8,137 nucleotides of DNA from Candidatus Altarchaeum sp. GTDB taxonomy: Archaea > Altiarchaeota > Altiarchaeia > Altiarchaeales > Altiarchaeaceae. The notes under the pieces are model-generated. The model saw only the letters and a program-made list of their open reading frames with translations, made no database searches and was not told the DNA's origin. Below are positions 231-7,639 of this stretch, piece after piece (the stretch's first letter is position 1; each line of letters begins with the position of its first letter). The stretch lies in assembly GCA_018260755.1 (NCBI GenBank), contig JAGTWP010000059.1:1-8137 (forward strand), given 5' to 3'. Both the position numbers and the translations under genes were made by a program.

Positions 231-2309
231 TTAATATACCTCTCCTTGAACAAGTTTTTGTATTTTTTCAACGACATCCGGATTCACTAGTGTTGTTACA
301 TCGCCCACATCAGTTCTGCCATTTGATAGCACAGCAAGAATTCTTCGCATAATTTTTCCGCTTCTCGTCTTTGGCATGTCTGGAACAATATATACATTCT
401 TTGGTCTTGCGATTGGTCCAATTATGTCTGCAACTGCCTGTTTAACTTTGTTCTTTAATTCTTCACTGGATTCAAATCCGGGTTTTAGAGATACATACAA
501 ATCAGGAATGTGTCCTCTGAGTTCATCCCCTTTCGGTACAACGGCTGCCTCTGCTATTTCCTCACAGGTTATTGCTGCCGATTCAATTTCTTTTGTCCCT
601 AATCTATGCCCTGCAACATTAATAACATCATCCATTCTACCTAAAATCCTAAAGTATCCGTCCTTTGCCTGCATTCCACTGTCTCCAGACATATATGGCC
701 AGTCCTGCCATTCCTTGCTGTCTTTATTTTTACAGTACTTTTCATAATATACTTTCACCATTCTTCCGGGATCTTTCCATATTGTAAGCATTCTTCCGGG
801 CCATGGATTTTTTATACAAATACTTCCTGCCTTTCCGCATCCTGCAGGAAGTTCCTTTCCATTTTCATCATATATAATCGGATAAATTCCTGGCACACCA
901 GGGCCTGCACTTCCCGGTTTCATTGGTTTAACAGCAGGAACTGTGCTGCATAAAAACCCTCCGTTTTCTGTTTGCCACCAGGTATCAACTATTACTGCTT
1001 CCTTCTTTCCAACCACATTATAATACCATCGCCACACATCAGGCTCTATAGGTTCTCCAACAGTTGTCATGTGCTTAAAGTGACAGTTGTATGCAGAAGG
1101 GTCAGAACCCATTTTTCTTAACATACGAATAGTTGTTGGGGCAGTATGGAATATATTTATTCCTAATCGCTCACATATTCTCCATGACCTGTTTGCATCA
1201 GGATATGTTGGTACTCCTTCATATATTACACTCGTTGCGGCAATTGCCAATGGCCCATAAACAATATAAGAATGCCCTGTAATCCATCCGATGTCTGCCA
1301 TACACCAATATACATCTTCGGGATGAATGTCCTGAATATATTTTGATGTTCCCGCAACATACGCCAGGAAACCACCGGTACTATGTAAGCATCCCTTTGG
1401 CTTTCCTGTTGAACCACTTGTATACATCAAAAAAAGTCCTGCTTCGGCTGGCATTGAAACCGGCTTTACAATTTTTCCTTTATGATTTTTAAGCAAGTCC
1501 TCTACAAGAAAGTCCCTTCCTTCAACTAACTTTGTCGGCGAACTATATTTATTGGAATATCGGCTCCATATAAGTACTTTATCTACTTTTTGTCCCAGTT
1601 TTGCTGCGGTTTTAACTGCTATATCTGCATTGACTTTGTGATCTATTAATTTTCCACCCCTGAAATATCCGTCTATTGTTACTAAAATATTGCTTCCCGA
1701 GTCAGCAATTCTTTCTCCGCATGCTTTTCCGCTGAAACCTCCGAAAACCTCCGAGTGTATTATTCCAAGTCGTGCACAGGCAAGCATTGATACAGGCAAT
1801 TCCGGAACCATTGGCATCTGGAATGTAATTCTGTCTCCAGCTTTTAAACCAAGTTCCCGGAGTAATGAAGCAAATTCATTGACTTTTACATATAACTCCT
1901 GATATGTTATAACCCTATCATGTTCTCCTTCCGGTTCCGGAACCCATATAATTGCGGCTTTATTTTTATACTTTGCCAAATTTCTATCAACGCAATTGTA
2001 ACAAGCATTCAATTTTCCTCCGACAAACCATTTAAAGAATGGCGGATTACTAGTATCAAGCGTTGTTTTCCAATACCTGTCCCAAGTCAACAAATCAGCA
2101 TATTCCTTAAAACACTCTGGAAAATTTTCCTCTTTAAATCTTTCATATATTGACTCATCTTTTACATTTGCCTGTCTGATAAATTTCTCCTGCGGCTCAA
2201 AATATTCTTCCTCCTGCCAATGTGCTCCTATTTCCGCCTCGCTCAATGCCATTTTGTCCCCATTTCCATTGTTGTTTTCATTCCCTGTTTTTTTAATTTC
2301 TTCGGCCAT
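231..2309 (-). CDS. acs: Acetyl-CoA synthetase, AMP-forming
   Basis: This cytoplasmic enzyme activates acetate with ATP and CoA through acetyl-AMP, giving acetyl-CoA, AMP and PPi. At 692 residues it is slightly longer than the usual 620-660. The ATP-binding loop YTSGSTGKPKG is at residues 296-306. DTWWQTENGG is at 442-451, where W445 matches the tryptophan that limits the pocket to acetate in Salmonella Acs. The hinge and CoA motif GRMDDVINVAGHRLGT follows YMSGDSG. PKTRSGK ends in K652, the catalytic lysine that is also the regulatory acetylation site in homologues. Residues 1-19 are low-complexity (Asn/Gly/Lys), so Met20, preceded by GGGGACAAA, is an alternative start. It is a single gene with its own AT-rich upstream region. 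Propionate is possible as a side substrate. Identification is firm. Confidence 0.96.
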   Translation of the reverse strand: MAEEIKKTGNENNNGNGDKMALSEAEIGAHWQEEEYFEPQEKFIRQANVKDESIYERFKEENFPECFKEYADLLTWDRYWKTTLDTSNPPFFKWFVGGKLNACYNCVDRNLAKYKNKAAIIWVPEPEGEHDRVITYQELYVKVNEFASLLRELGLKAGDRITFQMPMVPELPVSMLACARLGIIHSEVFGGFSGKACGERIADSGSNILVTIDGYFRGGKLIDHKVNADIAVKTAAKLGQKVDKVLIWSRYSNKYSSPTKLVEGRDFLVEDLLKNHKGKIVKPVSMPAEAGLFLMYTSGSTGKPKGCLHSTGGFLAYVAGTSKYIQDIHPEDVYWCMADIGWITGHSYIVYGPLAIAATSVIYEGVPTYPDANRSWRICERLGINIFHTAPTTIRMLRKMGSDPSAYNCHFKHMTTVGEPIEPDVWRWYYNVVGKKEAVIVDTWWQTENGGFLCSTVPAVKPMKPGSAGPGVPGIYPIIYDENGKELPAGCGKAGSICIKNPWPGRMLTIWKDPGRMVKVYYEKYCKNKDSKEWQDWPYMSGDSGMQAKDGYFRILGRMDDVINVAGHRLGTKEIESAAITCEEIAEAAVVPKGDELRGHIPDLYVSLKPGFESSEELKNKVKQAVADIIGPIARPKNVYIVPDMPKTRSGKIMRRILAVLSNGRTDVGDVTTLVNPDVVEKIQKLVQGEVY

Positions 2310-3653: not shown

Positions 3654-3716
3654 ATGTTCTCAGAAGCTACCCTTCTCATCACTGCTCAGACTGGGACGGT
3701 TTCATCACGGAACACA
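3654..3716 (-). ncRNA. Box C/D guide sRNA (dual guide, predicted 23S PTC targets)
   Basis: On the minus strand the order is: stem GTGTTC, one C, box C GTGATGA (3708-3702), 12-nt guide AACCGTCCCAGT (3701-3690), box D' CTGA (3689-3686), GCA, box C' GTGATGA (3682-3676), 12-nt guide GAAGGGTAGCTT (3675-3664), box D CTGA (3663-3660), stem GAACAT. All four boxes are consensus, both guides are exactly 12 nt as archaeal C/D RNPs require, the C'/D' loop is 3 nt, and a 6-bp stem closes the k-turn. With L7Ae, Nop5 and fibrillarin such RNAs direct 2'-O-methylation at the target base paired to the fifth guide nucleotide before D or D'. The 5' stem begins 9 nt after the secY stop, so it is probably processed from the operon 3' UTR. 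Confidence 0.93.
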
Positions 3717-3725
3717 AAATTAAAT

Positions 3726-5123
3726 TTATACGTGTTTCCCGAATAACCCTCTGAACCACATAGGCATACTTCCCATTTCTTCCTTTTGAAGTTGTTCATA
3801 CATCCTATATAATATTCCGACAGTTAGCAAAATTCCTGTTCCGCTTCCGAAAACACCGAGTAAGTCGGCAGATAATGCGAGTAATCCGACAGCAATGGAA
3901 CTTATTACTACCATCTGTGGAATGTATCTTTCAAGCACATGTTGTATAACTCTTATATCCCTTCTGAATCCCGGAATCTGCATTCCTCCTTGATGTATTT
4001 GCTGGGCAACCTTTTCAGGTCCGATGTTTGTTGTTGCGGCCCAAAATTTTCCGAAAAGCACACACAACCCAAGGAAAACCGCACCGTATATGAGTATATG
4101 CATTATAACCGTAATATCTCCTAATCTATATATTGAAGACGGATTAAGGACTCCGTATATGTTATTAGCGCCACCATAACCTGATGTAATATAAGAAAAG
4201 AAAATATATACTCCGTATTGTAATGGATTCATCTCCTGAACAGCCATTCCTGCATGTATGCCGAATATTGAAGGAATTAACTGAAGTGATTGTATAAGTG
4301 CTGCTGCCAATATTACAGGAATATTTGAAACATAGAAAAATTTTATCGGATATCTGGCACTTATTCCTCTGATTGTTCCGTAAGCAAGAGGTATTTCAAG
4401 TCGCATTGATTCCCCGTAAACAACCACCAGAAATACAATAATTGTTGCTATAATCGGAAAAAGCAAAAATGGATCTAAATTTCCCGTAACTAATTTTGAT
4501 ATGAAGTTTGGAATTGCTCCGGCATAATTTCCGACTGCTCCTGCTGTTTGCAATGGATTTATGGTTGCAGTTATGATTGACTGTGAAACCCCTCCAGCAA
4601 TAAATAATCCTATTCCCGAACCAATTCCGTATTTTGACACAATTTCATCAAGAAACATTAAAATTATACTGCCCATAGCAATTTGTAGGACAACGAGCCA
4701 GTACATACCTCCGCCCAACTGGAATGCTATGCTCATTGCCGCTGCTTCAAGAATAGAAAATATAACTATCAAAATCTTTTGTGCCCCCTGAAATAACGCC
4801 TTGTCTTCATTTCTTGTTAAGTCCAGTTCAAGTGCTCCTGTTCCAACTAATAGTTGAAGCATAATTGAACCCACAACAATTGGACCTATACCTACAGTTA
4901 ATAACGAGCCAATGTGACTCGCAAAAATCATCTGCATCAGTTCAAATCCAGATTTATTTATTTCTGCCTCGGTAATTCCGAAAGGGTAAATAACTCCTAA
5001 AACATAAAATAAACCCAGTGCCAATGCCACCCATAATACCTTGTCCTTTAAAGGTAGTGCCCTGGAAGGTCTTTTTACTTCTGGAATATACTTTAAATAT
5101 GGTCTGAGAAATTCAATTTTCAT
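3726..5123 (-). CDS. secY: Protein translocase subunit SecY
   Basis: This is the channel subunit of the archaeal SecYEG/Sec61 translocon in the cytoplasmic membrane. At 465 residues it is a little longer than the archaeal norm (about 435-460) and shows about ten hydrophobic segments. The N-terminal amphipathic helix (EVKRPSRALPLKDKVLW) precedes TM1 near residues 30-48 with YPFGI. The plug and TM2 region includes GIGPIVVGSIMLQLL (78-92), and the second SecY signature LDEIVSKYGIGSGIGLFI is at 158-175. The long cytosolic loop GGMQIPGFRRD (379-389) is the conserved arginine loop that binds the ribosome. It follows rpl15 by 57 nt, the usual archaeal order, but the expected next genes (such as adk) are absent: a C/D sRNA lies 9 nt past the stop. 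No Shine-Dalgarno is seen before the ATG. Confidence 0.97.
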   Translation of the reverse strand: MKIEFLRPYLKYIPEVKRPSRALPLKDKVLWVALALGLFYVLGVIYPFGITEAEINKSGFELMQMIFASHIGSLLTVGIGPIVVGSIMLQLLVGTGALELDLTRNEDKALFQGAQKILIVIFSILEAAAMSIAFQLGGGMYWLVVLQIAMGSIILMFLDEIVSKYGIGSGIGLFIAGGVSQSIITATINPLQTAGAVGNYAGAIPNFISKLVTGNLDPFLLFPIIATIIVFLVVVYGESMRLEIPLAYGTIRGISARYPIKFFYVSNIPVILAAALIQSLQLIPSIFGIHAGMAVQEMNPLQYGVYIFFSYITSGYGGANNIYGVLNPSSIYRLGDITVIMHILIYGAVFLGLCVLFGKFWAATTNIGPEKVAQQIHQGGMQIPGFRRDIRVIQHVLERYIPQMVVISSIAVGLLALSADLLGVFGSGTGILLTVGILYRMYEQLQKEEMGSMPMWFRGLFGKHV

Positions 5124-5180: not shown

Positions 5181-5675
5181 TTAGCTGCTTTCGTTTGTAT
5201 TTTCGGTTGTATTATCTGCTGCTATAACATCCCTGTCTTCTTTTGTTTCGCTTTCTATCAGCCCTCCTGCACCTTCAATTTTTTTCCTTGCTCCTTCCGA
5301 AAATGAGTCGGTTTGTATTATAAATTTATGTGAAATTTTTCCATCTCCCAATAATTTATCGTATCCGAGTGATGCAAGATTCAGATAATATGTGTCTTCT
5401 TTAATTGTTACTTTTCCTTCATTAACAAATTTTTCCAGATTTCTTTCAATATCCCTGATATTTATTGTGCTAATATCTACATCGGAAGAGTGTCTGGTAA
5501 ATCCATGACTTCCGTGTATATCTTTAAAGTATTTTGAATATTTGCACCATTTTTGTTTATACCATCCGGACTGTCCTGCACCTCCTTGACTTCCTGTTCC
5601 TCTGTGCTTCTGAATTCCCCATCCGTGATGATTTGAACCCCTTAATTTTCTTGTTTTTCTATCTTTAACCGCCAT
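5181..5675 (-). CDS. rpl15: Large-subunit ribosomal protein uL15 (L15)
   Basis: This is a 50S subunit protein of the archaeal/eukaryotic L15 (L27a) type, 164 residues. The basic Gly-rich N-terminal tail that threads into 23S rRNA is clear: RKTRKLRGSNHHGWG then HRGTGSQGGAG (residues 6-34). The HGFTRH motif follows at about 57-62. The globular domain ends in the L15 signature region, KISHKFIIQTDSFSEGARKK (113-132) then IEGAGG. The last 25 residues are acidic and Thr/Asn-rich (EDRDVIAADNTTENTNESS), an unusual tail for an RNA-binding protein and probably disordered. It lies 61 nt after rpl30 and 57 nt before secY on the same strand. Upstream sequence is almost pure A/T with no Shine-Dalgarno. Confidence 0.96.
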   Translation of the reverse strand: MAVKDRKTRKLRGSNHHGWGIQKHRGTGSQGGAGQSGWYKQKWCKYSKYFKDIHGSHGFTRHSSDVDISTINIRDIERNLEKFVNEGKVTIKEDTYYLNLASLGYDKLLGDGKISHKFIIQTDSFSEGARKKIEGAGGLIESETKEDRDVIAADNTTENTNESS

Positions 5676-5736: not shown

Positions 5737-6255
5737 TTATATCATTCTTTTCAACAAACCGTTGATTGCCGTTTCTCTGTTTCCGAGAGCACCGCCCATA
5801 GTATAAGGAATTTTTATGCCTTTTCGCTCAAAGCCCTTTGCAGGTGGCGTAAGCCGAAACGGTAATTTTAAATTTATATCACTTAATTTTGCATTATTTT
5901 CAAAAAATGCGTCAACGAATTCGTCAACCGACTTAAAATTCTGACTGAGTGATTTTATCGTTTCATCGTTTATTTTTGTCGTTTCTTTTTTTGCATCCTT
6001 TGTATCTTTTATTTTTTCTTTTGTTTTGTTTTGTAAAATTTCCCCCCTCTTTAAGAGCATCTCTTTAAATGTTTCTTTATCAATTTGCCCGTAAGCCACA
6101 TAATCCTTGACTTTGTTGAGCATTCCTTTGTATGTCTCATCTAATTCCACAACATTACAATTGTTTTTGTATTTTATTTTAAGTAAATCAAGCGTGGTCT
6201 TTATTCTTCCGTCTACATTTACTGTTCCTCTTACTCTAACTACCGCAACCTTCAT
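5737..6255 (-). CDS. rpl30: Large-subunit ribosomal protein uL30 (L30), archaeal type
   Basis: This is a 50S protein homologous to eukaryotic L7. The N-terminal strand VAVVRVRGTVNVDGRIKTTL (residues 3-22) and YGQIDKETFKEMLLKRGEI (55-73) are the archaeal/eukaryal hallmarks; bacterial L30 lacks this extension. The C-terminal LPFRLTPPAKGFERKGIK (131-148) with GGALGNRE is the conserved rRNA-contacting part. At 172 residues it exceeds the usual 150-155 because of a Lys/Thr/Asp-rich insertion at about 75-98. It is the first gene of its unit here, with its own promoter 50 bp upstream and divergent dys beyond. In most archaea rps5 would precede it directly. No Shine-Dalgarno precedes the ATG. Confidence 0.95.
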   Translation of the reverse strand: MKVAVVRVRGTVNVDGRIKTTLDLLKIKYKNNCNVVELDETYKGMLNKVKDYVAYGQIDKETFKEMLLKRGEILQNKTKEKIKDTKDAKKETTKINDETIKSLSQNFKSVDEFVDAFFENNAKLSDINLKLPFRLTPPAKGFERKGIKIPYTMGGALGNRETAINGLLKRMI

Positions 6256-6505: not shown

Positions 6506-7639
6506 ATGAAAGTTGTTCCAAAAATTACGGAAAAAGAAAAAAAGGAAAAAGAAGAAACAACGGGAGAAAATGAAAAAGAAGAAACCACAAAAGAAAATGA
6601 AAAAAAAGAAATACTCAGCAATGAACTAAAGCATATAGATATAGAGAAATTTAATGCTGTGCCTATTATTGAGGAATTTGAAAACAGCGGATTTCAGGCG
6701 AGAAATTTAGCGATGGCTGCAAAAATTTATGAAAATATGCTTAATGACAAGGAATGTTCGGTTATATTGTGTTTAGCCGGCTCGCTTTTTAGTACGGGCT
6801 TAAAAAAGGTTGTTTATGATTTGGTTAAATTTAACATGGTTGATGCTATTGTTTCTACTGGAGCAATTATTGTAGATCAGGATTTTTTTGAAGCACTCGG
6901 ATTCAAACATTACATAGGGACAAATTTAATTGACGATGAAATGTTGCGGAGAAATAGTATTGACAGAATTTATGACACTTATATTGATGAGGACCAATTG
7001 CGGATTTGTGATGAGACCATTAGAAAGATTGCCAATGAATTGAAACCAAGACCTTATTCATCAAGAGAATTTATAACTGAAATGGGAAAATTTTTAGATA
7101 ACAAAAATATTGATAATGATTCGGTTCATTCGGTTGTGCTTGAATGTTATAAAAAAGGAGTTCCGATATTTGTGCCTGCTTTCTCCGATTGCAGTGCAGG
7201 ATTCGGATTAATAGAATATCAGTTTAACTTTCCAAACGAGGAAAAAGTTACTATTGACAGTGTAAAGGATTTTCTTGAATTAACAAAAATCAAACTTGAT
7301 GCAAAGGAGACTGGATTAGTTATGATTGGCGGAGGAGTTCCGAAAAATTTTGCCCAGGATATCACGGTTGCGGCAGAGGTAATAAATGATAAATCTAAAA
7401 TGGTGAAAGATGTCCGGATGCACAAATATGCAATTCAGATAACAGTTGCAGATGAAAGAGACGGGGGATTATCCGGCTCAACATTAAAAGAGGCACATTC
7501 ATGGGGAAAGGTTGATGATAAATACACACAGATGGTTTATTCGGAAGCGACAATAGCACTTCCGTTGCTCGCGAGTTATGTGTATCATAAAGAGGCGTGG
7601 AAAAACCGAAAAGCAAGGAATTACAATAAAATTTTGTAG
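6506..7639 (+). CDS. dys: Deoxyhypusine synthase
   Basis: This NAD-dependent enzyme moves the aminobutyl group of spermidine onto one lysine of aIF5A, the first step of hypusine formation. It is 377 residues, longer than many archaeal forms (about 310-350). Landmarks are LAGSLFSTGLKKVV (90-103), VDAIVSTGAIIVDQDF (112-127) and VPAFSDCSAGF (223-233). Then come GLVMIGGGVPKNF (270-282) for NAD binding, TVADERDGGLSGST (313-326), and SWGK (332-335), where K335 matches the covalent lysine K329 of the human enzyme. Residues 8-35 are a charged low-complexity leader with a tandem nonapeptide EETTGENEK/EETTKENEK. No Met follows until residue 69, inside the fold, so this start stands although no Shine-Dalgarno is present. 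Transcribed divergently from rpl30. Confidence 0.96.
   Translation: MKVVPKITEKEKKEKEETTGENEKEETTKENEKKEILSNELKHIDIEKFNAVPIIEEFENSGFQARNLAMAAKIYENMLNDKECSVILCLAGSLFSTGLKKVVYDLVKFNMVDAIVSTGAIIVDQDFFEALGFKHYIGTNLIDDEMLRRNSIDRIYDTYIDEDQLRICDETIRKIANELKPRPYSSREFITEMGKFLDNKNIDNDSVHSVVLECYKKGVPIFVPAFSDCSAGFGLIEYQFNFPNEEKVTIDSVKDFLELTKIKLDAKETGLVMIGGGVPKNFAQDITVAAEVINDKSKMVKDVRMHKYAIQITVADERDGGLSGSTLKEAHSWGKVDDKYTQMVYSEATIALPLLASYVYHKEAWKNRKARNYNKIL
6551..6604 (+). repeat. In-frame 27-bp tandem duplication in dys
   Basis: Two adjacent 27-base units (6551-6577 and 6578-6604) match at 23 positions and encode EETTGENEK and EETTKENEK (residues 16-33). The duplication builds the charged N-terminal leader outside the conserved deoxyhypusine synthase fold. 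Confidence 0.8.

Follow-up and report, generated by a model that had tools for sequence, protein, structure and literature searches.

Genomic context of the sRNA gene

The window, i.e. the whole stretch of 8,137 nucleotides that was analysed, is contig C16 of a 1.32-Mb genome in 78 contigs. The relatives of the encoded SecY at 86-93% identity are those of Candidatus Altarchaeum (Altiarchaeota). On the minus strand, rpl30 (uL30; 5737..6255; PRK06049.1, 8e-46, above cut-off) is followed by a probable rpl15 (uL15/L18e superfamily; 5181..5675) and by secY (3726..5123; NCBIfam PRK08568.1-5, 2e-88; TIGR00967, 1.5e-78). The name rpl15 was given mainly because the gene lies between uL30 and secY; its L18e match is weak (6.5e-5) and below the cut-off. 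A complete box C/D sRNA follows directly downstream of secY, in the same orientation, at 3715-3654. An initial reading of the letters and open reading frames (the sequence-only reading) had placed it 9 nt behind the secY stop codon, and this distance was confirmed (end of secY at 3726, spacer to 3716). A deoxyhypusine-synthase-like gene is located on the plus strand of the window (6506-7639); its best NCBIfam equivalog, above the cut-off, was PRK02492 (1,9-bis(guanidino)-5-aza-nonane synthase).

Structure of the secY-linked sRNA

Read directly, the minus strand from 3716 to 3654 is GTGTTC-C-GTGATGA-AACCGTCCCAGT-CTGA-GCA-GTGATGA-GAAGGGTAGCTT-CTGA-GAACAT. The closing stem of 6 bp is formed by GTGTTC (3710..3715) and GAACAT (3654..3659), with a G-U at the outermost pair. 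The C box is GTGATGA (3702..3708; RTGATGA in all orthologues) and the D box CTGA (3660..3663). Internally, the D' box CTGA (3686..3689; invariant among orthologues) is separated by the inner loop GCA (3683..3685; likewise 3 nt long in each of the four Altarchaeum genomes) from the C' box GTGATGA (3676..3682). The C' and D boxes were assigned from the sequence and by orthologue comparison. The D' guide AACCGTCCCAGT (3690..3701, 12 nt) has as its predicted target 23S rRNA G2251 in the P-loop (E. coli numbering throughout), and the D guide GAAGGGTAGCTT (3664..3675, 12 nt) 23S rRNA U2438.

The sequence-only reading had described all four boxes as consensus, both guides as exactly 12 nt, the inner loop as 3 nt and the stem as 6 bp; all of this was borne out (guides 3701-3690 and 3675-3664, loop 3685-3683, stem 3715-3710 with 3659-3654). 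The features of the box C/D class were found together: terminal C and D boxes and internal C' and D' boxes, guides of 12 and 12 nt, a D'-C' spacer of 3 nt, a terminal stem adjoining the C and D boxes, and complementarity to rRNA with a Watson-Crick pair at N+5 in both guides.

Conservation in Candidatus Altarchaeum and the Altiarchaeota

An orthologue was present behind secY and on the same strand in all four Ca. Altarchaeum genomes examined. Unconserved boxes within alignable flanks had been named beforehand as evidence against a gene. The opposite was seen: between species of the genus, the 63-nt RNA with its boxes and guides showed 90-98% identity and the flanks 47-80% (60 nt after the RNA, 55-62%; 30 nt before it, 47-80%). 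Within the genus, the guides varied only at positions 1 and 12 (numbered from the D or D' box), which are unpaired or end positions. Anatomy and conservation together lend good support to the earlier claim of a box C/D sRNA gene that ORF annotation had missed.

The closing stem was compared across 11 C/D sRNAs of the genus. Compensatory double changes occurred in all six pairs, and 98% of cells were paired, a value reached in none of 500 shuffles; the covariation was lost when the alignment was slid by one column. A covariance model built from the C/D sRNAs of the genus was searched against 29 Altiarchaeota genomes and gave relatives in 25 of them. The D guide (GGGTAGCT core) followed by a D box, in a complete C/D layout with consensus boxes, was found in 18 of the 29 genomes, with positions 2-9 invariant. 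In genomes outside the genus, position 7 of the D' guide forms an A-G mismatch with the P-loop, and methylation there may therefore be weak.

In one further genome (G027), the orthologue (L074, ~1501-1563, plus strand) carries a swapped D' guide, GCGAAGTAG, directed to 23S C2498, with the D guide unchanged. The same swapped core was seen on the minus strand in G019 (L069/L092). C2498 is the Cm2498 site of E. coli.

Chance expectation, Rfam comparison and folding

In a 1.3-Mb genome of the same base composition, the four-box motif with the same geometry is expected ~0.0005 times. A strict three-box pattern occurred at 4 places in the genome and at 3-4 places in each of three congeneric genomes, with 0 matches in the reversed control and 0 in the control of the congeners. 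The AT-richness of the genome and the lack of an Rfam match at gathering score could be taken for signs of a chance resemblance or a decayed relic. This explanation is hardly credible in view of the low expectation, the empty controls, and boxes that are intact and conserved at genus and phylum level.

Scoring with a C/D sRNA covariance model had been suggested by the sequence-only reading. In Rfam, no match for the sRNA was obtained at gathering score; below it, nearly all matches to the sRNA strand were C/D-box families, with snoPyro_CD and SNORD31 at the top. The scores were 37.8 bits for snoPyro_CD (E 8e-7; gathering cut-off 45 bits) and 34.7 bits for SNORD31 (E 1.5e-6; cut-off 40 bits), and the sRNA was therefore assigned to neither family. 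The isolated RNA fold was not significant (z -0.77), which is expected since C/D RNAs are held by k-turns.

Predicted rRNA targets

Targets were predicted in the organism's own rRNA by the archaeal N+5 rule (PMC4644070), under which the methylated nucleotide pairs with the fifth guide position counted upstream from the D or D' box. Positions 2-11 of the D' guide form 10 consecutive pairs with 23S CCTGGGGCGGTA, 9 Watson-Crick and one U-G (-20.1 kcal/mol), and the nucleotide opposite position 5 is equivalent to E. coli 23S G2251. Positions 1-9 of the D guide form 9 contiguous Watson-Crick pairs with 23S AAGCTACCC (-15.3 kcal/mol) and point at U2438. Both predicted targets are located in domain V of the 23S rRNA, ~190 nt apart. 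Of 1500 trials with composition-shuffled guides, 0.13% matched both scores jointly and 0.07% did so with the two sites no more than 200 nt apart. Taken singly, the matches are modest, random 12-mers equalling them in 8-13% of cases (wider rRNA loci).

Ribose methylation of G2251 is known from bacteria, halophilic archaea and eukaryotes (PMC11542601). Guide sRNAs for this nucleotide have been predicted in three archaeal species (PMC4644070), as has one in Haloferax (PMC2584109). The assignment of the D' guide to G2251 is much strengthened by this methylation and by guides for the site in other organisms, eukaryotes included. The D guide is predicted to act on U2438 on the basis of complementarity, the invariance of positions 2-9 in 18 genomes and a target region that is conserved among the 23S genes compared; no report of archaeal U2438 methylation was found in a literature search. 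An alternative D-guide site, 23S AAGCTACTATTC (11/12, with an internal mismatch), ranked first by total matches. It was dropped in favour of U2438, to which contiguous-run scoring through position 5 led, backed by the conserved positions 2-9.

The two targets in domain V would also suit an RNA that acts mainly as an rRNA-folding chaperone and forms a bridge from the 2438 region to the P-loop (H80 region), one of the two sites being methylated weakly or not at all. Such a role has been proposed for dual-guide sRNAs (PMC4644070), and the U-G pair in the D' duplex, the A-G mismatch outside the genus and the replacement of the D' guide in G027 (same core in G019) with retention of the D guide would be in line with it. 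Against this, both duplexes have a Watson-Crick pair at position 5, which in the D' guide lies exactly opposite G2251, a nucleotide methylated across bacteria, archaea and eukaryotes (PMC11542601). A mainly chaperoning function is considered improbable.

Comparison with known guide RNAs

The archaeal dual-guide RNAs of Pyrococcus, snoPyro_CD (RF00095) and sR12 (RF01147), resemble the secY-linked sRNA in boxes, spacing, length, the presence of two guides and the terminal stem, but their covariance models match it only below threshold and their guide sequences are different. Its host differs as well: it belongs to a cold-subsurface lineage in which only about four C/D sRNAs are recognisable.

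In the Rfam model alignment, the D' guide of SNORD31, ACCGCCCCAGU-CUGA, is nearly identical to that of the secY-linked sRNA, ACCGTCCCAGT-CTGA. Human SNORD31/U31 and yeast snR67 also have the predicted D' target nucleotide as their target (28S G4166, PMC6466398; 25S G2619, equivalent to E. coli G2251, PMC11121408). In eukaryotes, the RNA is longer and, unlike the secY-linked sRNA, has a degenerate C' region. Similar guides can evolve separately where the target is conserved, and the likeness therefore does not establish common descent. Methanopyrus sR13/sR45 (PMC4644070) and the Haloferax Gm1934 guide (PMC2584109) belong to the same RNA class and share the predicted G2251 site; the comparison with them was made at the level of the site.

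Protein components and proposed function

Genes for fibrillarin (PF01269, 7.6e-78) and Nop5 (PF01798, 2.5e-52) are encoded in the genome. The anatomy, the conservation, the targets, the covarying stem and these two genes together argue for a real archaeal 2'-O-methylation guide of an ordinary kind. As a whole, the locus is best explained, with high confidence for a reading made from sequence, as an archaeal box C/D sRNA gene of ~55-63 nt whose product would guide 2'-O-methylation of rRNA. The individual gene and its phylum-wide orthologue group are new; the kind of RNA is thoroughly known.

L7Ae would bind the C/D k-turn and the C'/D' k-loop, and Nop5 and fibrillarin would assemble on the sRNA. 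2'-O-methylation of the 23S rRNA would then be directed to G2251 in the P-loop by the D' guide and, beside the peptidyl-transferase ring, to U2438 by the D guide. With less certainty, the mature RNA may be cut from the 3' end of the rpl30-rpl15-secY transcript and trimmed to the protected RNP.

Further C/D sRNAs of the genome

A second C/D sRNA is located on contig C40 (L003, 1494-1556, plus strand) and is present in all four genomes of the genus. Its guides are CTCTTCGTGCCT and TATCGCCAAACC, with predicted targets at 23S ~2056 and 2606. Position 2606 is the most shared archaeal site in PMC4644070. The third sRNA (contig C76, L005, ~1478-1542, minus strand) is predicted to act on 16S C1402 (D') and 23S U2552 (D), and relatives were observed in several other Altiarchaeota. 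In bacteria, 16S C1402 and 23S U2552 are methylated by stand-alone enzymes. The fourth sRNA (contig C65, L004, ~1478-1541, minus strand) lies directly behind tRNA-Arg(TCG) (1546-1621, minus strand), with which it likely shares a joint transcript. Its D' guide has a 12-nt match at 23S ~576, and no orthologue was seen in the other three genomes of the genus. The three sister sRNAs behave as expected of real guides, their predicted targets including the classic sites 16S C1402, 23S U2552 and 23S 2606.

Position behind ribosomal protein genes

Archaeal C/D sRNA genes are mostly without promoters of their own and often overlap or follow ORFs; as a rule, the sRNAs are co-transcribed and matured from longer transcripts through RNP protection (PMC7994747). 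The 9-nt spacing behind secY fits well with such maturation. In the four genomes of the genus, the spacer between the secY stop codon and the stem measured ~9, 50, 55 and 345 nt. A T-run of about nine was found between secY and the sRNA in one congener (G001), and TATA-like AT-rich stretches precede the sRNA in G001 and G003.

Occurrence of the same arrangement in relatives, also raised by the sequence-only reading, was confirmed for all four genomes of the genus and not beyond it: a search of other Altiarchaeota families for an sRNA behind secY found none. No relevant paper on secY-linked C/D sRNAs in archaea came up in a literature search. In family f4, the orthologous sRNA is located behind a prefoldin-beta gene (L067, L073, L076, L077, L078 and L081, near 1100-1570), and in G008 (L067) the gene string upstream of it begins with rpl37ae. 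In G005, the sRNA adjoins a topoisomerase I gene.

Boxes C and D are k-turn motifs, and archaeal L7Ae-mRNA binding has been reported (PMC5539422). The conserved element could accordingly be pictured as a k-turn in the secY 3' UTR that binds L7Ae and regulates mRNA stability or termination, with no guide RNA being made. This is very unlikely, as the guides equal the boxes in their conservation and are complementary to rRNA, and the same RNA occurs at other loci elsewhere in the phylum.

The sequence-only reading had further suggested that processing of the secY 3' UTR couples production of the guide RNA to the expression of ribosomal proteins. The identification as a C/D sRNA stood; the coupling is plausible but unproven, the spacer varying from 9 to ~345 nt and the placement being genus-specific. 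The variable spacer, the T-run, the TATA-like stretches and the other loci outside the genus disfavour a tight, selected coupling. Two independent placements behind ribosomal-protein gene strings (secY; rpl37ae...prefoldin-beta) are suggestive in its favour and are no test of it, and the coupling is therefore rated as a plausible idea.

Possible guide set of the Altiarchaeota

These observations can be joined in a wider, tentative reading that we regard as possible rather than probable. The near-minimal C/D sRNA set of the Altiarchaeota would cover four ribose-methylation sites of E. coli stand-alone enzymes (16S C1402; 23S G2251, C2498 and U2552) in addition to 2438 and 2606, with C2498 covered only in genomes outside the genus. 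The P-loop guide gene would have been re-sited at least once to the 3' end of a ribosomal-protein gene string (secY; rpl37ae...prefoldin-beta in another family), guide supply thereby tracking ribosome production.

An unannotated RNA gene, conserved phylum-wide, is added to abundant uncultured subsurface archaea, and two methylated nucleotides at the P-site and catalytic centre of the ribosome are put forward as a testable prediction. The few guides found here have functionally central sites as predicted targets, which is the pattern expected if guides are kept for function and not for heat stability.

Additional C/D-like elements

In G019, the sRNA is closely followed by a second C/D-like model match in the same orientation. 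An extra but partial copy of stem and C box, tgttctgtgatgaa, lies just before the sRNA in strain A3 (G002; L056, ~4720-4751) and is perhaps a relic of a duplication.
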